From contig JANQEN010000146.1 in assembly GCA_028278335.1 (NCBI GenBank), positions 62,001 to 126,000 on the forward strand: a stretch of 64,000 nt of DNA, in the 5' to 3' direction. Positions 49,517 to 62,616 of this stretch are shown here, piece by piece. Position 1 is the first letter of the stretch; every line of letters starts with the position of its first letter. The position numbers and the translations under genes are program-made. The stretch comes from Chitinivibrionales bacterium. GTDB lineage: Bacteria; Fibrobacterota; Chitinivibrionia; Chitinivibrionales; JANQEN01. Under the pieces are notes generated by a model that was not told the DNA's origin, did no database searches, and saw nothing but the letters and a program-made list of their open reading frames with translations.

Positions 49517-50248
49517 CTAATCCTTTTTCCATACTTCATTCTGATAGTGATTAAAATTTGGACTTGGCCGGTGACAGTGCATCATATTGCCACAGGATTT
49601 CTTGAAGGGGTCCCAAAGATGCAGGGTATCATTAAAGTGTGTTACGTTTGTAGAGTCCTCTGCCCGTCGCAAAAAGCGGACATCCACCTTTTTATTTCTA
49701 TGGTGCAAGGCATCCACTCGAGGGATTGAGTCTTCACCCATACCAATATAGTTCTTCTGTCGAAAACGAGCTAGCGTTCCGGGGAGTGTTACATATTCAG
49801 TAGAAGAGAAATGGCACTCATTGCAGTTTTTCTTCAAGTTTACCACATGAGTGGTGTGATCACCGGTAGTTGGCGGATAGCCATGACAGATGTCACAGCG
49901 ACCGGGATTCACATCAACCTTTTTGTCCGCATGGAGTGAGTCCAGGGCTGGATAGAAAATGCCCCCTACTTCAACCATCTTATCATGATAAACTACCAGG
50001 TTTGAGTCAGTAATCGTTTTCTCAAACTTAACTGCACCCATATGACATTTCGAGCAGGTTGTCACTTGTTTGGTTCCCGAAGTAAAACCATCAACCCGAC
50101 AATATGCAGAGCCAGGAAAGGTGTGACACTCATCGCAGGAAGCAGCTACCAATTTGTTTTTATTGCCGGGTGTATCGACCGGTTTGACACAGAGGACCGC
50201 AAAGAGCATCAGTAAAACAGAGAGAATAACAAAGCCTACTTTTCTCAC
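49517..50248 (-). CDS. pentaheme c-type cytochrome lipoprotein
   Basis: A 243-residue exported protein; the signal peptide ends FAVLC, so Cys20 may be lipidated. Heme sites are CDECH (38-42), CSKCH (65-69), CDICH (118-122) and CNECH (142-146). A fifth, expanded site CGNMMHCH (219-226) is of the Cx5CH type. Several distant His can be axial ligands. It would carry electrons outside the membrane, matured by the CcsA/ResB system at 55-57 kb. First gene in a four-gene operon. Confidence 0.88.
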   Translation of the reverse strand: MRKVGFVILSVLLMLFAVLCVKPVDTPGNKNKLVAASCDECHTFPGSAYCRVDGFTSGTKQVTTCSKCHMGAVKFEKTITDSNLVVYHDKMVEVGGIFYPALDSLHADKKVDVNPGRCDICHGYPPTTGDHTTHVVNLKKNCNECHFSSTEYVTLPGTLARFRQKNYIGMGEDSIPRVDALHHRNKKVDVRFLRRAEDSTNVTHFNDTLHLWDPFKKSCGNMMHCHRPSPNFNHYQNEVWKKD

Positions 50249-54375: not shown

Positions 54376-54858
54376 CTATTTGGAGCGAAACAGTGGTAGA
54401 GAAAAAACCTCTCCTAATTTATTCTTAAACACCATCCATACCATCCAGACACTCAAAGCGGTAAGGGCAAAGTTTTCAAGGATCTTGGCAATGCCGATAC
54501 TGGAAGCTTCCTCATCAACGGAAAAGCAACCACAACTTATATCCAATCCTCTAAAATAGGCCTGGGTAACCAAGGTGGTAAAATTGACAAGCAGGATAAG
54601 GTTAATTACCACTGACGCATCGAGCCATATGCCAAAAATGAGAAACAATCCAACAACGATCTCTACATAGGGAAGCCAAATAGCTACCCAGCGGGATATG
54701 CCAATGGTGAGTACTGGTACCTGATAATTGGAGACCATTTGCGCAAAATCGTAAGGATGAATAAGCTTATCCACAGCGGCAGCAATCAACAGAATACCAA
54801 ACAAGATTCGAAGGCCTAAAAAGACCAGCTTTAACCAATTTTCTTTAAGATATGTCAT
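54376..54858 (-). CDS. DoxX/MauE-family membrane protein
   Basis: A 160-residue protein with four helices (LGLRILFGILLIAAAVDKLIHP, ISRWVAIWLPYVEIVVGLFLIF, SVVINLILLVNFTTLVTQAYF and ILENFALTALSVWMVW). The segment RGLDISCGCFS holds a CxC pair, as in MauE/DoxD proteins that move electrons to thiol partners. It stands between the rhodanese and polyprenyl synthase genes. In related clusters this family works with thioredoxins or rhodaneses on periplasmic disulfides. Confidence 0.82.
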   Translation of the reverse strand: MTYLKENWLKLVFLGLRILFGILLIAAAVDKLIHPYDFAQMVSNYQVPVLTIGISRWVAIWLPYVEIVVGLFLIFGIWLDASVVINLILLVNFTTLVTQAYFRGLDISCGCFSVDEEASSIGIAKILENFALTALSVWMVWMVFKNKLGEVFSLPLFRSK

Positions 54859-54868
54859 TTTTTTCTCC

Positions 54869-55348
54869 TTAGTAATCCAGTGGTAAACCCTGTTCTTCCC
54901 AATTCTCTATACCCTCTTTGAGGATATATACCTTTGTAAACCCCTTTTTGAGAAGATACTTTCCAAAGACAAGCTTGTTTTTTGTATCTTTACCCTCGTA
55001 GACAATGACCGGTTGGTTTCGATCTTTATCAGCTAAAAGTGATGCATCCTTGACAATATCCATAAAGGGTGTGGATGCCGCCTTTGCTATATGAGAGTAG
55101 TCATAGTCTTCTGCTGTTCGAATATCTAAAAAAAGCGCCCCCGCTGATTCTGCCATAGGTGCAGCATCTTTGGCAGAAATCTCTTCAACCCCACCCTTAC
55201 CAAAGGTGAGTGACAAAAGAAGGATCGGCAATCGAATGCCCTCGGTCAAAAACTGATTTGCGATCACTGCGATCAGCAAAGTGCTTACGCCTATGATAAT
55301 CATCCGGCGAAGCGTCCTTATATTTTCTGCGTTTAATAATTTTTCCAT
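54869..55348 (-). CDS. membrane-anchored rhodanese-like protein lacking the catalytic Cys
   Basis: A 159-residue protein: an N-terminal helix (about 16-32) followed by a rhodanese domain (LFLDIRTAEDYDYSHIAKAASTPF, FGKYLLKKGFTKVYILKEGIENWEEQGLPL). Where active rhodaneses have Cys in the loop after the beta strand VIVY, this protein has Glu118 (VIVYEGKDTKNK), so it cannot form a persulfide there. It is probably a binding module for its operon partner, the DoxX/MauE protein 10 bases downstream. Confidence 0.85.
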   Translation of the reverse strand: MEKLLNAENIRTLRRMIIIGVSTLLIAVIANQFLTEGIRLPILLLSLTFGKGGVEEISAKDAAPMAESAGALFLDIRTAEDYDYSHIAKAASTPFMDIVKDASLLADKDRNQPVIVYEGKDTKNKLVFGKYLLKKGFTKVYILKEGIENWEEQGLPLDY

Positions 55349-55479
55349 ATGGTTTTACCTTGTTAATAGTCCATTACAACATCTGTGTTTCGTTAACCTA
55401 CCAACTGTTTCTAAGAGTATACAATCGGGCGAGGTCACCATACAACTAAACCAATCATGACCATCCTCCTTTTTAAGGG

Positions 55480-56301
55480 TTATGTATATGCATGGAGTCC
55501 ACCCAAAACCATACTTGAAAAAAAAGTTAAAATCGCTGCTATAAATCCTCCAATGCTTAAAATATGGGGAAGAGCCCCTCGCACTCCTCGCACCAAGCGT
55601 GCATGAAGATAAAGTGAATAGATAATCCAGACAACCAAGGAGCAGGTCTCCTTGGGATCCCAACTCCAAAAGGAGCCCCAAGCCTGTTGCGCCCAAATGG
55701 CACCGGCAAAGAGCGCGCCCACAGTAAAAAGCGGATAGCCAATGGCAATGGCCCGATAGGTTATCATGTCAAGCACCTCTTGATTCGGTATTCGACTATA
55801 GAGCTTCCCCTTTTTTGCACAGGCACCTTTTATAAAGTAAAGAATACTGGAGGCAAAACCAATGGCAAAGATGGCCTCACTTGCTGCTGCCAGAGTAACA
55901 TGAATCTGGAGCCAATAGCTTTGTAAGGCCGGGAGTAGCTGAGTAGAACCCTCTTTGGGAAGCAACGAAGCTGCAACCATGAGCATAAAGATAACCATAC
56001 CACAGAGCGCACCAACCAAAGCGTTCTTTATCAATCGGATGACAATAAAGTAGCCAATTCCAGCAAACCATATAAAAACCGTGATATACTCATACATATT
56101 TGCCAAGGGCAAATGTTTAAGCTCTAAGGTTCTAACAATGAGACCCAAGGTTTGAAAGAGCAATCCGCCAGCCATGGCACCGTGACTGAGACGAATAAGC
56201 CATGACTTTTCCGTGGCAATAATCAAAAGGTATGAGACCATTGCAATGGAGTATGTTATAAAAGCTGCCCAAAAGAATTTTGTATTAATAGCCTGTTCCA
56301 A
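55480..56301 (-). CDS. ccsA: cytochrome c biogenesis protein CcsA/ResC
   Basis: A 273-residue polytopic membrane protein. The WWD heme-handling motif is WAQQAWGSFWSWDPKE (203-218). His residues in WLQIHVTLA (His134) and LYLHARL (His233) are the conserved heme ligands. With ResB it forms the system II complex that carries heme to the outside and attaches it to apocytochrome CxxCH sites, such as those of the pentaheme protein at 49.5 kb. Four bases separate it from resB. Confidence 0.94.
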   Translation of the reverse strand: MEQAINTKFFWAAFITYSIAMVSYLLIIATEKSWLIRLSHGAMAGGLLFQTLGLIVRTLELKHLPLANMYEYITVFIWFAGIGYFIVIRLIKNALVGALCGMVIFMLMVAASLLPKEGSTQLLPALQSYWLQIHVTLAAASEAIFAIGFASSILYFIKGACAKKGKLYSRIPNQEVLDMITYRAIAIGYPLFTVGALFAGAIWAQQAWGSFWSWDPKETCSLVVWIIYSLYLHARLVRGVRGALPHILSIGGFIAAILTFFSSMVLGGLHAYT

Positions 56302-56305
56302 AAAA

Positions 56306-57631
56306 TTATATCCTTTTTAATGCTGTGATTACCTGTTGTATCTCCCCTACTGACACCATCCGTAAAGGGTACAAAGAGAGTTCTAATCCTTCTCCCTTTT
56401 TAAAGATTTGGATTGCCATTGCGCGAAAGGGAAATAAAAAGACACCGATCAATCCGCAACTGACCACAAGAAGACACCCCAGGATAGCATTAGTGGCGGG
56501 GCTCTTTTTTATGGTGATCCCACTAAAGTATATGGGTTTATAGGAGAGAATTTTTATGGTAAATTCCTCGTCTGTTCTATGCATAACGGGTATTTTTAAA
56601 AAGTGCCACCGGGCACTGACTAAAGAGTCTTTTCGGGAGAGGGTAATAAAAAATGCTGGATTATTGTGCTCATGGGATCGACTAAAGACCTTTTTCGTCT
56701 GAGTATTATAGACAAAATCAGAGAGAAAAGCCGAACACCGTACCATGAAGGTACTATCGTTACAAGGGGTGGACTGATTAAATGAAATTGGTCCATAGTA
56801 TAGTGTATCCTTAGAGCTTCTCTGGGTAACCATGAGTTTAATCTGCTCCACTGAATCAGAATATGAGCCATAATGAGATTGATAAAAGTAATAGTCTCGA
56901 TAGCGAAAAGGCTTGTTTACTCTGCTTACCCCATTTGCAACAATAGTATCATTCGCATCAACGAGGGTGAGATGAGAAGCATAGTTACTCAGCGCTCCAG
57001 AGTTATCCTGCTCAATAGCAAAGGTATCCAAGGAAATAGAAAAACCAAATTTACTGAACCTGCTTTCCTTACGCTGGTCTAAAATGAAATTTTGCGAATC
57101 TCCCCTATAGTACTGGACCATGCTGCTTATTACCAAGGCAAAAAGTCCCACATGCAGTACGAGTGACCCCACAACACCAAAGGTTCCTTTATGGGCAAAG
57201 CTGGTATGTTTGTTTGAATCGTGGGAGGAAAAAACCTGATAGCCCTTTTTGTTAAGCACCAAACTTACCTGATGAGCAGCCTCCTGTTGAGTCAATCCAG
57301 TGATGGACCACCGCTCTTTTGTACTCTGTTTCTCCATTGGCCACTTTGATCGAAGTATCGACAAAAGAAAGAGTGCTCGGGTTACTGTACAGGCTCCTAA
57401 ATTGAGCAAAAAAATGAATAGGGTTATAATAAAAAGTGGTGATGAGAAAATGCGATGCAATTGAAAAAACAGCAGAGCGCGGGTCAACAACAGGCCATAC
57501 TTTTTTTCATAGAGTTCAACCGTCCAATCCTGTGGTACTACAATGCCAATACATGAAATAATTCCAATTATTACCAAGAGAATAAGGAGCAGTCGGATTG
57601 AATGAAGAAAGCGTACCACGTTACCAATCAT
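56306..57631 (-). CDS. resB: cytochrome c biogenesis protein ResB/CcsB
   Basis: A 441-residue membrane protein with ResB architecture: two N-terminal helices (IRLLLILLVIIGIISCIGIVV, LFIITLFIFLLNLGAC), a third at about 150-170 (GSLVLHVGLFALVISSM), a large extracytoplasmic loop with FYFYQSHYGSY-type sequence, and a last helix (ILGCLLVVSCGLIGVFLFPF). ResB and CcsA together are the heme handling and ligation complex. First gene of a seven-gene minus-strand cluster ending at 50591. Confidence 0.9.
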   Translation of the reverse strand: MIGNVVRFLHSIRLLLILLVIIGIISCIGIVVPQDWTVELYEKKYGLLLTRALLFFQLHRIFSSPLFIITLFIFLLNLGACTVTRALFLLSILRSKWPMEKQSTKERWSITGLTQQEAAHQVSLVLNKKGYQVFSSHDSNKHTSFAHKGTFGVVGSLVLHVGLFALVISSMVQYYRGDSQNFILDQRKESRFSKFGFSISLDTFAIEQDNSGALSNYASHLTLVDANDTIVANGVSRVNKPFRYRDYYFYQSHYGSYSDSVEQIKLMVTQRSSKDTLYYGPISFNQSTPCNDSTFMVRCSAFLSDFVYNTQTKKVFSRSHEHNNPAFFITLSRKDSLVSARWHFLKIPVMHRTDEEFTIKILSYKPIYFSGITIKKSPATNAILGCLLVVSCGLIGVFLFPFRAMAIQIFKKGEGLELSLYPLRMVSVGEIQQVITALKRI

Positions 57632-58004
57632 ATTTATTAAAATACATAATCAACTTAAACTAACTTGACAATATCATGAGAAAGCAGGCATTAGAATCAC
57701 CAAGGTTTTGTATCCTATTAACGCATTTTTCCAAGATCCACCTCGCCCATATAATATTGTCTTGATTTTTTTAGATTCCCCATTCAAAATTGTATAAACT
57801 AAATAAGGAATATAACCAGATTGTCATAATATTTAATGGGTTAAATTAATATATGCCCTAATCATATTTCAACACAACTGTCACATTCCGATTCATCTAT
57901 ATAAATAGAGTTGTTCATATATTTTGTGCTATATTATTAATATATACTAAAATAATGCGCCAATTTTTTAATAATTATTAAACCACTACTTGGAGGAGGT
58001 CGCG
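57632..58004. other. divergent promoter region of resB and the Sec gene
   Basis: A 373-base AT-rich stretch between divergent resB and the deiodinase-like gene. It holds both promoters. The right end has GGAGGAGGT (57992-58000), the ribosome site of the Sec gene. No other gene or repeat was seen. Confidence 0.5.
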
Positions 58005-58850
58005 GTGAAAAAGATAGCAACCACTATTGGGGTGATGGTATTACTCTGTGGTTACCTCAATGCGCAGCCAGCAAAAGACTTCACCATCCACAACTACGAC
58101 ACGCAAAAAGAGTGGACCTTAAAAGATTATCTGGGCGATCATGTCATTGCCCTGATCTCTGGAAGTTTCTGTTGACCACCCTTTCTCAGACTGACCGAGG
58201 CTCGGCAGAACCTTTACAGAAAATTTAAGGACAACCGTCATTTCCTCATGTTTGAGGTGTATATTCATGAGGCTCATCCGGGGGAAAACAATCCAACCTA
58301 CCCCGAATTCGCCCGATTTAAGCAACCAAAGACCATGGAAGATCGGATTGAGATCTTTGAATTCTATCGATCCTATATTCCATCAAAGCCTTTAGTTTCA
58401 GGAGACACAATAATAATACCAGCACTCATTGATTACATTGATAGAACCTGGGAAAACAAGTATAGTCGGTTGCCAACAGCAGGATTTGTGATCGGTTTTG
58501 ATGGAAATATCAAGGAAAACACCGGCTTCCTCACCCGCTCTAGTCAGATTAAAAACATGGAGGAGGCAATTGAAGAGGAGCTAGCTTCACGAATCAATCA
58601 TATTTCTCAAAAGGGAATCAGAGAAAAACCTTCTGCCTTCTTTGCATCAACAGATAAGATCATTATACAGGGAATACCCGGGACCAAGACTCTCTATTCT
58701 CTTTATACATTGAATGGAGCGCTTATTAAGAGTGGACGGGTATCAAAGACAGATAAGGCTATTACTTTGCAAAGCTCGGTTTCCCCAGGCATATACCTTT
58801 TAAAAATAGGCATGCAAAACAGGTATACTATTCCCATTGCGCTTCGATAA
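58005..58850 (+). CDS. deiodinase-like selenoprotein with C-terminal sorting domain (in-frame TGA)
   Basis: A 281-residue protein from GTG 58005 (ribosome site GGAGGAGGT; a TTG at 57990 overlaps that site). Signal peptide about 1-20, ending LNA. The thioredoxin-fold part has ALISGSFC-Sec-PPFLRL, with Sec57 from the TGA at 58173-58175, and then EVYIHEAHPGENN. In iodothyronine deiodinases the active site is (Sec)-Pro-Pro-Phe and the next conserved block is Y-x-x-E-A-H; both are here. Residues about 205-281 form a beta-sandwich tail (IIIQGIPGTKTLYSLYTLNG, SVSPGIYLLKIG) of the outer-membrane sorting type. Two separate frames result if TGA is read as stop. Iodide chemistry is not implied; a secreted selenol oxidoreductase is. 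Confidence 0.9.
58176..58208 (+). promoter_or_regulatory. SECIS-like hairpin of the first deiodinase-like gene
   Basis: CTG-A-CCGA (58191-58198) pairs with TCGG-CAG (58202-58208) around loop GGC (58199-58201), with one bulged A. The loop starts with G and lies 23 nt after the TGA, in the usual window for bacterial SECIS. It is inside the coding region and translates as LTEARQ. Confidence 0.78.
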
Positions 58851-59055: not shown

Positions 59056-59910
59056 ATGCAAAAGCGCCTATTCACTCTTACCATTTCTATTCTTATTGTA
59101 GTCGGTCTATTTTTCACCAACAGCTATAGTAGAAAACTTGAAATTCAGTGCAACACCAAAACCTATGGCGGCGTTAATGGGGGACATCATCCAGGATCTA
59201 ACGTTGCCGTAATGTTCGTTACCAAGGCAGATTCCACTTTTATTAAGACTTTATGGGTGTGGAGCTTTTATGGCTTTGATTTTATGTTAAAAAATTGGCG
59301 GACCTGGAGTGGATTAGGAAAAATATCCATGTATGATGGAGAAACCAGTGCTACCCGCCAAGACCATAAGGAGCAACTTAAAGCTGTTTGGGATTGTAAT
59401 GACACGACGGGTACTCCAGTTCCAGACGGAGACTATCTATTTTGGGTCGAGCTACAGGAACATGATTATTTCTGGGGCGATCATGATCCCAATGAAAAAT
59501 ACTATGGACGGATCACTCATGGAAAAATCAAAATAGATAATTCTGGAAAAGAAAAAGATGGAGATATGTCTGACACGGTCTTTTTCAATTTCAAAGCAAA
59601 ATATGATCCTAATGTTGGTATCGTTACCCCTAGGAAACATTCGCATAAAGATATCTCCTACACCTTTGATGCAGTTAGACAGCGGGTCACATTCTCTCTG
59701 AATAAACAGGTAGCCCAAGAGTCACAGTTGCATATACTTGATCTTAAGGGCCGATTTGTTGAAAAAGTTGCTCTCTTTTCATCATCTGGCCAGTTTGTTT
59801 GGGACATTCAGAACGGTAGGACACCCTCGGGAGTATACCTCTTTGAACTCCGGTCAAAGGCAACTGGTAAGCTTCTTGGCAAACCTCAGAGAATATCTTT
59901 GCTGAAATAG
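59056..59910 (+). CDS. DUF2271 secreted protein with sorting-type tail
   Basis: A 284-residue exported protein. Signal peptide about 1-24. Residues about 30-180 match DUF2271: NVAVMFVTKADSTFIKTLWVWS, GETSATRQDH and VWDCNDTTGTPVPDGDYLFWVE, an Ig/FlgD-like fold. The C-terminal region (about 205-284) is a sorting-type domain (SQLHILDLKGRFVEKVALFSS, PSGVYLFELRS). DUF2271 proteins often sit with flavinylated or PepSY membrane redox proteins. Here it follows a Sec gene by 205 bases with AAAGGAGGAA as ribosome site, so a shared extracellular redox role is plausible. Confidence 0.8.
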   Translation: MQKRLFTLTISILIVVGLFFTNSYSRKLEIQCNTKTYGGVNGGHHPGSNVAVMFVTKADSTFIKTLWVWSFYGFDFMLKNWRTWSGLGKISMYDGETSATRQDHKEQLKAVWDCNDTTGTPVPDGDYLFWVELQEHDYFWGDHDPNEKYYGRITHGKIKIDNSGKEKDGDMSDTVFFNFKAKYDPNVGIVTPRKHSHKDISYTFDAVRQRVTFSLNKQVAQESQLHILDLKGRFVEKVALFSSSGQFVWDIQNGRTPSGVYLFELRSKATGKLLGKPQRISLLK

Positions 59911-60070: not shown

Positions 60071-60154
60071 ACTGCTAACAGTTATGATACAGTCTGAGAA
60101 AATCAAAGCCTTTTTTATTATGCTCATACCTCTACATCGTAATGAAATTATCTG

Positions 60155-60410
60155 GACAACGCTTTTTACCCGGGTACAACGTTAGTAAGGTTCAGACAAC
60201 GCTATTTTAGCTTTGGCATCGCTATTTTATCTGAGCACATCGCTAATAAGGTTAAAACAACGCTATTTTAAATTTTGGTATCGCTATTTTGCCTAATCAC
60301 AACGCTAATAAGGTAAGCACAACGCTATTTTAGCTTTTGACATCGCTATTTTACCTAAGCACAACGCTAATAAGGTCAAGACAACGCTATTTTACCTAAT
60401 CGCATCGCTC
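60155..60410. repeat. 20-21-bp tandem repeat array with 62-bp higher order
   Basis: About twelve units of the form CAACGCTATTTTA plus 7-8 bases. Every third unit reads CAACGCTAATAAGGT, giving a 62-bp higher-order period: CAACGCTAATAAGG, CAACGCTATTTTAGC, CATCGCTATTTTACC. The core A(A/T)CGCTA is nearly constant. There are no unique spacers, so it is not CRISPR. Confidence 0.8.
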
Positions 60411-60475: not shown

Positions 60476-60505
60476 AAAAAGGGTCAACCAAAAAAGGTTG
60501 ACCCT
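60476..60505 (-). terminator. rho-independent terminator of the second Sec gene
   Basis: AGGGTCAACC and GGTTGACCCT form a perfect 10-bp stem around AAAAAA, followed on the minus strand by five T. It lies 26 bases after the stop at 60532. Confidence 0.9.
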
Positions 60506-60531: not shown

Positions 60532-61689
60532 TTACCGCATGTGCCAAACCTTTTTCACAATGGTTTTTCCAGGAGTGCGAATATTGATAATATGCATACC
60601 TGAGGTAAGTCCTGCAGGAATAGCGTACCATCCAACTCCCTTGGCAGTTGTAAATGAGGAAAGGAGCTTTCCACTTACATCGGTGACAGTGACTGAATAG
60701 TTACCGGCAAAGGGCATATAGAGCTCGTATGAGTTCGCTAATTTGCGCACCCGTATTGATTTGGTTGCACCGGCAACATTGTGTACAATACTGGTTTGAC
60801 CAATAGAGAATACACCTGACTCATCATTACCAACATTACCCATGGCATCATAGGCGTATACCTTGATTTTGCAGTCATTGGCAGTAACATTGGGTACGGT
60901 CCAATCATAGCTACCACTGTTACCAGAGGAGCTATCAACCAGTTCGTAATTAGAACCACCGTCCTTAGTAAAATAGATTGCTCGAGAAACAACACCCACA
61001 TTGTCGGTGGCATTCCATTTCACTTCAAAGGTATCGCCAGACTTGAGTTGCTCGCCACCGGAGGGGGCGTTCAACTTTGTTTCTGGAGCCTGTGTGTCAA
61101 TGTCATCCAACAGATCTTGGATTTTGCTATCTAAACCAGAATAGGCATTTCCAAAGTTGTTGGGGAAATCTTTACGATACACAATCTCACCCTTTAGATC
61201 AATGGTAATGATTGACGTGTAGTTTGCCCGGAACTTTTTAGAGACTTCACAATCTCTAAAGTAGCCTTTGTCAACAAGACCTGGACATTTGACGAAGCTA
61301 AACTTTTCTTGGTAGTCCTCGTAGTGTCGCACCCGTTCAGGCATATCGCATCGTGGGTGCCGTGAGTCTGGGTGGGCTTCCCAGTGGTACACATCATAGA
61401 GGGCAAAAAATTTGTTTGATTTGTATTTGTCGTATATTCTTTGTCTTTCACGCGCCGCGTTGTATGAATTACAAAACGGGGGTCAAGTAATACTACCAAA
61501 TACAAGGGTAAGGATCTTTTTACCATAGATACTATCAGTACTAAAGGTCTTATCTTTGTACTGATATATGGTAAACTCGGGAGCCTTGTCCGGAAGGACA
61601 TCCTTAGTCTGCGCTTGGAGCGCTGACATGCAGGCGATACCGACAATGACAATGGATATTGCCAGTACCTTTCTCAGGAAGCTATCCAT
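60532..61689 (-). CDS. deiodinase-like selenoprotein with Ig-like and sorting domains (in-frame TGA)
   Basis: A 385-residue protein from ATG 61689 (ribosome site GGAGAGGTGG). Signal peptide about 1-26, ending SALQA. Active site VFGSIT-Sec-PPFCNSY, with Sec69 from the TGA at 61485-61483; GSxT-Sec-PPF is exactly the iodothyronine deiodinase signature. The next block, VYHWEAHPDSRHP, keeps the E-A-H-P. A Cys four residues after Sec could form a selenylsulfide. Residues about 195-295 are an Ig/FN3-like domain (APETKLNAPSGGEQLKSGD), and 300-385 a sorting-type tail ending VKKVWHMR. With TGA as stop it breaks into a 68-residue and a 286-residue frame. It is convergent to the other Sec gene. Confidence 0.92.
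61440..61475 (-). promoter_or_regulatory. SECIS-like hairpin of the second deiodinase-like gene
   Basis: On the minus strand, upper stem ACGC (61460-61457) and GCGT (61453-61450) close the loop GGC; an outer stem TTTGT (61475-61471) pairs with ACAAA (61444-61440). The loop starts 26 nt after the TGA. Loop GGC is identical to the first deiodinase-like gene. Confidence 0.78.
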
Positions 61690-62031: not shown

Positions 62032-62616
62032 TTACATTTGATCGCGTGGAGGAGAAAGGCTCCACACTGCTCGTAGCGTTGTATCGCCAATATTTTTAAA
62101 GGTATGGGTCACTAAAGAGCGAAATAATATGCTATCACCGGTATTCAAAAGCATTTCACTGTCGTCTTCTAAAATCACCAACATCTTTCCAGTAATAAGG
62201 TAACCCATAGCCACCACATCAAGTCCCTGCCCGCGTAGGGAGATTTCATTATCCGGTTGAATCTCCATCAGAAGAAACTGGGCGTTGATCGGATTGTCCG
62301 AAGTGGGAACGAGTTTTTCAAAAAAGGCATATTTATAATCCTCTTTGGGTCTTTTGTCAGGATTATATACATGAACCGGATTAGATTGATTAATCGCTTT
62401 TATGAGATAGGTCATATCCATGCCCATGGCATTGCAGAGTGCAAAAAGGGTGCTCACCGAGGGTGACACAATGGAACTCTCAATTTGGCTAAGCATGCTT
62501 GAAGAGATTCCTGCTTTTTTTGCAACATGGGACTGGGTTAAGCGAATGCTTTCTCTATACTGTTTGAGAAGCGGACCTATTTTTTCAGTGGGATTTTCAA
62601 CATGTGATTTTTCCAT
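62032..62616 (-). CDS. XRE-cupin transcriptional regulator
   Basis: A 194-residue regulator. The helix-turn-helix is at about 18-72: RLTQSHVAKKAGISSSMLSQIESS gives helices 2 and 3, a typical HTH_3 pattern. The C-terminal cupin (about 115-190: NEISLRGQGLDVVAMGYLITGKMLVIL) can bind a small ligand. Such proteins control polyamine, amino-acid or lipid genes. The neighbour at 62745 is spermidine-synthase-like, so polyamine control is a reasonable but unproved guess. Confidence 0.88.
   Translation of the reverse strand: MEKSHVENPTEKIGPLLKQYRESIRLTQSHVAKKAGISSSMLSQIESSIVSPSVSTLFALCNAMGMDMTYLIKAINQSNPVHVYNPDKRPKEDYKYAFFEKLVPTSDNPINAQFLLMEIQPDNEISLRGQGLDVVAMGYLITGKMLVILEDDSEMLLNTGDSILFRSLVTHTFKNIGDTTLRAVWSLSPPRDQM

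Follow-up and report, generated by a model that had tools for sequence, protein, structure and literature searches.

Almost certainly, the gene at positions 60532..61689 on the minus strand encodes a selenoprotein. Its product is probably a selenocysteine (Sec) enzyme of a deiodinase-related fold that is exported and would reduce a small electrophile. The selenoprotein assignment was made because Sec machinery was present in the genome, the TGA codon was conserved, a homologue with Cys was found and most family members showed a SECIS-like hairpin. The gene is referred to as P0001 and its paralogue, at 57990..58850 on the plus strand, as P0002. Both are located in the window, i.e. the whole 64-kb stretch of DNA that was analysed. 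G000 denotes the source genome and G034 the same-family (sister) genome; contigs carry C numbers and loci carry L numbers.

Reading frame and domain structure of P0001

P0001 was recognised by its reading frame and by homology as a deiodinase-like selenoprotein gene for 385 aa with a single in-frame TGA. It starts with ATG at 61689, preceded by a ribosome-binding-like stretch (AAGGAGAGG), and terminates with TAA at 60534-60532 (minus strand). The TGA is codon 69 (61483..61485, minus strand). It was read as Sec on the basis of the frame and its retention in relatives, giving a product of 68 + Sec + 316 = 385 residues. The first-pass annotation had joined frames of 68 and 286 residues through this TGA. 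The TGA and the 68 residues were correct, but the listed ORF of 286 aa starts only 30 codons past the TGA, at an internal GTG, and the real stretch behind the TGA comprises 316 codons. The site FGSIT-Sec-PPFC and the motif VYHWEAHP were both present as described there. An intrinsic terminator-like hairpin was located 3' of the gene (60480..60505, minus strand), where one was found and 1.4 were expected in shuffled sequences.

The N-terminus carries a putative hydrophobic signal or anchor helix (residues 1-26; 61612..61689, minus strand), seen in the sequence and as helix 3-28 in the structural model. Residues 33-200 (61090..61593, minus strand) were assigned to a thioredoxin-fold, deiodinase-like domain by the model, the fold search and the alignment. 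The alignment placed YHWEAHP (61369..61389, minus strand) as the counterpart of the deiodinase motif YIxEAHP at the edge of loop D. An Ig-like domain had been proposed from the letters of the DNA and proved to be real. It matched Pfam Big_7 with 30.6 bits (cut-off 24.1) at residues 202-277 (60859..61086, minus strand), a stretch of low confidence in the model.

Both marks of a T9SS type A cargo were found for P0001. The sorting domain TIGR04183 was over its cut-off (27.9 vs 23 bits; residues 327-381, 60547..60711, minus strand), and the genome held a SprA homologue, a 2144-aa frame with an SprA_N match of 51.1 bits. The tail had been considered different from that of the other copy. The T9SS tail of P0001 stood, but P0002 showed a similar one just below the threshold (22.6 bits, cut-off 23 of TIGR04183), so the tail of P0001 is less distinct than claimed. 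Taken as a whole, the product is likely to be an exported thioredoxin-fold reductase.

Conservation of the TGA codon

The family alignment (A5) was searched against 167 genomes of the phylum. Strong family matches were five genes in G000 and four in G034, each with one in-frame TGA and scoring 73.7-209.1 bits. G034, which is 68% complete, was the sole other genome marked as the same family among the matches listed. The TGA was kept in all nine strong same-family genes of the two genomes. The remaining matches reached at most 31.2 bits, had no internal stop and occurred in 19 of the 167 genomes, counting G000 and G034. These weak, stop-free matches included C2 of G000 (28.0 bits) and C118 of G034 (21.2 bits).

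Genome contigs were also scanned with a pattern around the YIxEAHP motif that leaves the Sec codon out. From the 473 relatives detected in this way, the best 80 were retained. They came from many phyla, and 79 of these best 80 had TGA at the Sec position. Homologues with Cys in place of Sec had been named as a check, and one was found among the best 80 of the 473, L099. TGA stood before PPF or PPY in 76 of the best 80 and before GPF in two (L055, L073), and L066 had TGA together with EIHP. L040 and L041, both counted among the 80, are identical and originate from one assembly. Thirty genomes were chosen from those of the 80 relatives and searched for SelA. It exceeded the cut-off in 26 of them. 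The genome that has the Cys form L099 yielded no such SelA, nor did three of the 30 with a Sec-type relative.

The TGA was aligned in three orthologue pairs, with an amino-acid identity of 49, 58 and 52% after it vs 50, 64 and 49% before it. Many silent changes occurred on both sides. Judged from these sequences, conservation is of the coding type before and behind the TGA. The first-pass annotation had argued from two independent copies sharing the same TGA. The two window copies are paralogues and not independent events. The conclusion it drew, that a chance stop is unlikely, was borne out on other grounds, with the TGA kept far beyond the window copies in 9/9 same-family genes and 79 of the best 80 relatives. 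A chance stop or a sequencing error was rejected in view of this conservation. An unusual genetic code was not required, since both tRNA-Sec genes have the anticodon UCA. Viral or plasmid origin was considered and rejected: three scans of viral contigs revealed no relative of the family, and the plasmid search returned one record with a weak match only (E 0.3).

Selenocysteine machinery

The source genome has a size of 6.33 Mb in 301 contigs, with 90.5% completeness and 1.15% contamination. The selenoprotein reading had been made to depend on Sec machinery in this genome, and SelA, SelB, SelD and tRNA-Sec were all present, two of each. The proteins were over their cut-offs and both tRNA-Sec genes, with anticodon UCA, were over the Rfam threshold. 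Both SelDs of G000 carry an in-frame TGA themselves. Cassettes of selA, selB and tRNA-Sec were located on C6 (L003, L010, L019) and C244 (L002, L011, L018), with differing gene order.

SelA of C6 clustered with the SelA proteins of 12 further phylum genomes (SH-aLRT 100). SelA of C244 fell among genomes reached from loci of other phyla, with a support of 94 for an open fork of 8 rows. The SelA fragment of the sister genome G034 shared 58% identity with SelA of C6 and 41% with SelA of C244. The tetranucleotide distance of C244 was 0.113 and 0.120, 18 other stretches of the genome itself ranged from 0.073 to 0.129, and six outside loci had distances of at least 0.179. Since the composition of C244 is within the range of the other contigs, contamination is not favoured. 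The C244 cassette was apparently acquired. SelA exceeded the cut-off in 15 of the 167 phylum genomes, and G000 alone had two. A precedent is Photobacterium profundum 3TCK, for which the available part of one article describes two tRNA-Sec located in different complete operons (PMC5330540). The doubled Sec machinery of G000, one copy of which looks acquired, provides a testable case of specialised decoding.

SECIS-like hairpins behind the TGA

A narrow rule for SECIS-like hairpins was set after inspection of the sequences. It asked for at least four pairs and a loop of 3-4 bases starting with GG, 18-31 nt from the TGA. P0001 showed the hairpin ACGC-GGC-GCGU (61450..61460, minus strand), whose loop lies 29 nt from the first base of the TGA, and P0002 showed CCGA-GGC-UCGG (58195..58205, plus strand). 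Such hairpins were found in six of the nine same-family genes, both window genes included, and were missing from three; these are not nine independent cases because orthologue pairs are among them, and two genes share one hairpin. Synonymous recodings of the nine gave a mean of 0.25 genes with a hairpin, and six or more were reached in 0 of 2000 sets. For the single genes, a hairpin arose in 6 of 2000 (P0001) and 17 of 2000 (P0002) synonymous recodings. The narrow rule also selected 80 of 2461 control TGAs of the window and 45 of 77 other relatives, the Cys form counted among the 77. Of the two SelD genes, the one on C179 had a GG-loop hairpin under the narrow rule and the one on C13 did not.

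A broad first rule had asked for G in the first two loop bases and a loop 16-37 nt away. Under this rule P0001 did not stand out (57 of 500 control TGAs did equally well), and P0002 was weakly singled out (27 of 500). The minimum-energy hairpin of P0001 was a stronger competitor at 61455-61479 without a loop G. The hairpin set as a whole would support the selenocysteine reading, and the P0001 hairpin is probably a SECIS element.

Relationship to the deiodinases

A phmmer search against all PDB chains placed mouse Dio3 first for both P0001 (E 4.7e-4) and P0002 (E 2e-6). The profile PF00837 (gathering cut-off 27) gave 33.5 bits for P0002, which is above the cut-off, and 22.4 bits for P0001, which is below. 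Both proteins were below the cut-off of NF038285 (250), with 32.3 bits for P0001 and 65.0 bits for P0002. With PF00837 as the sole probe, one of the 167 phylum genomes was detected, P0002 was the sole match and P0001 was missed.

The alignment with the deiodinase family, which had been suggested as a check, confirmed the signature GSxT-Sec-PPF in P0001. Ser, Thr, Sec, PPF, Tyr, Glu, His and Pro of this signature and of Y-x-x-E-A-H-P were all present. In mouse Dio2, the relay is given as Ser127, Thr129, Tyr157, Glu160, His162 and His182 in the available part of PMC11592359. P0001 aligned with the first five of these six residues. For the sixth, a His is nearby in P0001 where the alignment is unsure, and the 77-row consensus has Pro thereabouts. 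Across the nine same-family genes, Tyr was kept in nine, Glu in nine, His in eight, Ser in six and Thr in four, by eye in the alignment. The loop-D Trp (Trp207 of Dio3) was absent from the aligned sequences of P0001 and P0002.

The structural model of P0001 had a mean pLDDT of 74. Residues 31-200 averaged 81-95 per ten residues except for residues 101-120, which contain the EAHP loop, with values of 68 and 74. The fold search with P0001 listed thiol-disulfide oxidoreductases first and had peroxiredoxins within its first ten rows; the best 50 of 233 fold matches (E <=0.001) contained no Dio chain. For the P0002 model, Dio3 ranked first and Dio2 fifth. The term deiodinase-like used in the first-pass annotation was supported by the superfamily and the active-site signature and was not supported by the PF00837 and NF038285 cut-offs, the loop Trp and the fold ranking of P0001. 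P0001 deserves the name deiodinase only in part, and nothing here supports deiodination of thyroid hormone. P0001 was not filed under PF00837 because of the missed cut-offs, the lacking loop Trp and the lead of thiol-disulfide oxidoreductases in the fold search. From sequence and model, it would work as a deiodinase-related, Sec-dependent reductase of the thioredoxin fold.

Proposed function

SelB and Sec-tRNA(UCA) would read the TGA as Sec, and the short hairpin just past it may aid insertion, as comparison and genome content suggest. The domains and SprA point to a product that would be exported, would bear a T9SS-type sorting tail behind an Ig-like spacer and would work at the cell surface or outside. 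Sec69 would be the nucleophile of the thioredoxin-fold domain. The residues of a deiodinase-type relay are present (Ser66, Thr68, Tyr101, Glu104, His106), and by analogy with mouse Dio2 they may serve this role. A small electrophile would be reduced, with peroxide as the first choice and an organohalide as the second, and a thiol would reset the enzyme. The most likely role predicted for P0001 is to reduce a small electrophile outside the cytoplasm in a Sec-dependent reaction.

The top fold matches of P0001 would also suit a secreted ResA-like thiol-disulfide oxidoreductase with the task of resetting disulfides in proteins of the surface or the periplasm. Both copies had weak NCBIfam ResA matches (15.7 and 15.3 bits, cut-off 170), and genes for ResB, cytochrome c assembly, rhodanese and MauE start about 360 bases from P0002 on the opposite strand. 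Such a function is rather unlikely for a protein that has no CxxC and in which Sec is followed by PPFC and not by xxC. Nor is ResA known to have an EAHP motif or the loop-D insertion.

We consider it unlikely that P0001 is a secreted reductive dehalogenase proper, in which Sec would attack the halogen of an aromatic or other organohalide as in the animal deiodinases. The loop-D Trp is absent, the sites of the paralogues vary (GNLC-U-GPF, GSIT-U-QPF, GSVS-U-PPF), L184 is without EAH, and the fold matches of P0001 start with thiol-disulfide oxidoreductases and include peroxiredoxins in the first ten. These observations weigh against the conserved GSxT-Sec-PPF, Y-x-x-E-A-H-P and five relay residues and against mouse Dio3 as the top PDB chain by sequence for both window copies and the best fold match of P0002. 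That the TGA is a true stop, as under table 11, leaving two peptides or a pseudogene, is highly improbable in view of its presence in 9/9 strong same-family genes and 79 of the best 80 relatives, the coding conservation past it and the full Sec machinery, even with the P0001 hairpin weak under the broad rule.

Comparison with known selenoproteins

Bacterial deiodinase-like proteins with Sec and with Cys were reported in 2005 from the Sargasso Sea; the available part of that article lists four Sec sequences and suggests a redox function (PMC1088965). A review, as far as its available part goes, includes the deiodinase-like family among those found by bioinformatics and gives the bacterial site as UxxC (PMC13188914). 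The physiological function of these bacterial selenoproteins is not established according to the available parts of both sources (PMC1088965, PMC13188914). As in the published proteins, so far as these parts describe them, P0001 is bacterial, has Sec with Cys forms alongside and has a putative SECIS element of the bacterial kind. Its site U-PPF-C differs from the UxxC of the review (PMC13188914). Median core identity to the bacterial relatives was about 27%, the PF00837 and NF038285 cut-offs were missed and the loop Trp is missing. The fused Big_7 domain with a T9SS-type tail and the five paralogues in a single genome are further differences from the published proteins.

P0001 shares GSxT-Sec-PPF, Y-x-x-E-A-H-P, the thioredoxin fold and the best PDB sequence match with animal Dio1-3, but differs in being bacterial, in its Ig-like and sorting domains, in lacking the loop-D Trp and in an altered C-terminal half of the domain. 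In fold it resembles ResA-type oxidoreductases and the peroxiredoxins Bcp and AhpE, which were the best solved-structure matches, and differs from them in the EAHP motif. ResA-type proteins, Bcp and AhpE carry CxxC or a peroxiredoxin motif where P0001 has Sec followed by PPF.

Literature on selenocysteine with Fibrobacterota or Fibrobacteres contained nothing on a deiodinase-like family as judged by title and start of the abstract. Bacterial deiodinase-like selenoproteins are already known; what looks new is the divergent, expanded clade, its Ig-like and T9SS-type tails and a genome with two Sec cassettes. The clade bears on what the common ancestor of the animal deiodinases did.

Paralogues and gene neighbourhood

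The paralogue P0002 is a deiodinase-like selenoprotein gene with the site GSFC-Sec-PPF. It starts with TTG at 57990 or GTG at 58005 and has its TGA at 58173-58175 (plus strand). In a quick tree in which L184 and mouse Dio3 were flagged as long, the nine same-family genes formed one side of a branch vs mouse Dio3 and 77 named-record relatives belonging to other groups (SH-aLRT 99). An earlier family tree contained the two window genes but none of the other seven, and both were flagged as long branches joining each other. By sequence, P0001 is placed in a divergent clade of same-family genes that counts at least five Sec paralogues in G000. The sites of the paralogues include GNLC-U-GPF, GSIT-U-QPFC and GSVS-U-PPF, and L184 has lost the EAH triplet.

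Between P0002 and P0001 a DUF2271-like, probably exported protein is encoded (59056..59910, plus strand), identified by profile match and neighbourhood. Relatives were found in the clusters of three other deiodinase-like genes, on C115 and C18 of G000 and C407 of G034 (L179:117-956, L180:3365-4288, L183:2057-2911). The gene adjoins the deiodinase-like gene on C18 and is one gene further away on C115 and C407. Pairwise identity of the four proteins was 36-46%. At E 0.001, G000 had five PF10029 matches; three of the five sit in deiodinase-like clusters, so a chance linkage is unlikely. The DUF2271 neighbour was not found by eye in the stretches fetched at L178, L181, L182 and L184.

On C115 and C407, a further candidate selenoprotein gene with an in-frame TGA lies between the deiodinase-like and the DUF2271-like genes. 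Its site is GFYHC-U-EDHQ or GFYFC-U-EDHQ (L179:991-2064, minus strand; L183:888-1985, plus strand), and the proteins were 45% identical between the two genomes. Apart from a weak sorting tail, they had no Pfam or NCBIfam match. Among the matches listed for the 167 phylum genomes, these two were the only ones of full length and the others covered the sorting tail only. With five Sec paralogues that are probably exported and a DUF2271 neighbour that recurs, the lineage offers a concrete setting for finding the substrate of the family. As a tentative extension, one family may possess at least five surface selenoenzymes with degenerate sites, derived from a deiodinase-like ancestor, which together with the DUF2271-like partner, the GFYxC-U-EDHQ selenoprotein and the second Sec cassette could possibly form a Sec-dependent redox system of the outer surface.

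L178 and L182 are orthologous genes with the site GNLC-U-GPF, and a neighbouring protein looks alike by eye in both genomes; that of L178 matches PSII_BNR (YCF48-like repeats). Directly upstream of P0001, about 340 bases off on the same strand, a regulator with helix-turn-helix and cupin domains is encoded (62032-62616, minus strand). A 74-nt unit occurs four times at 60151-60409, between the DUF2271-like gene and the 3' end of P0001, with a spacing of 61-62 nt and rich in CAACGCTA and ATCGCTATTTTA. A search of the 64-kb window with Rfam detected a tRNA and nothing else. Genes for ResB, a cytochrome c assembly protein, rhodanese and MauE/DoxX stand in a row at 54376-57631 (minus strand), divergent from P0002 at a distance of about 360 bases. 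A probable multihaem cytochrome with several CxxCH motifs, recognised by eye in the translation, is encoded at 49517-50248 (minus strand).
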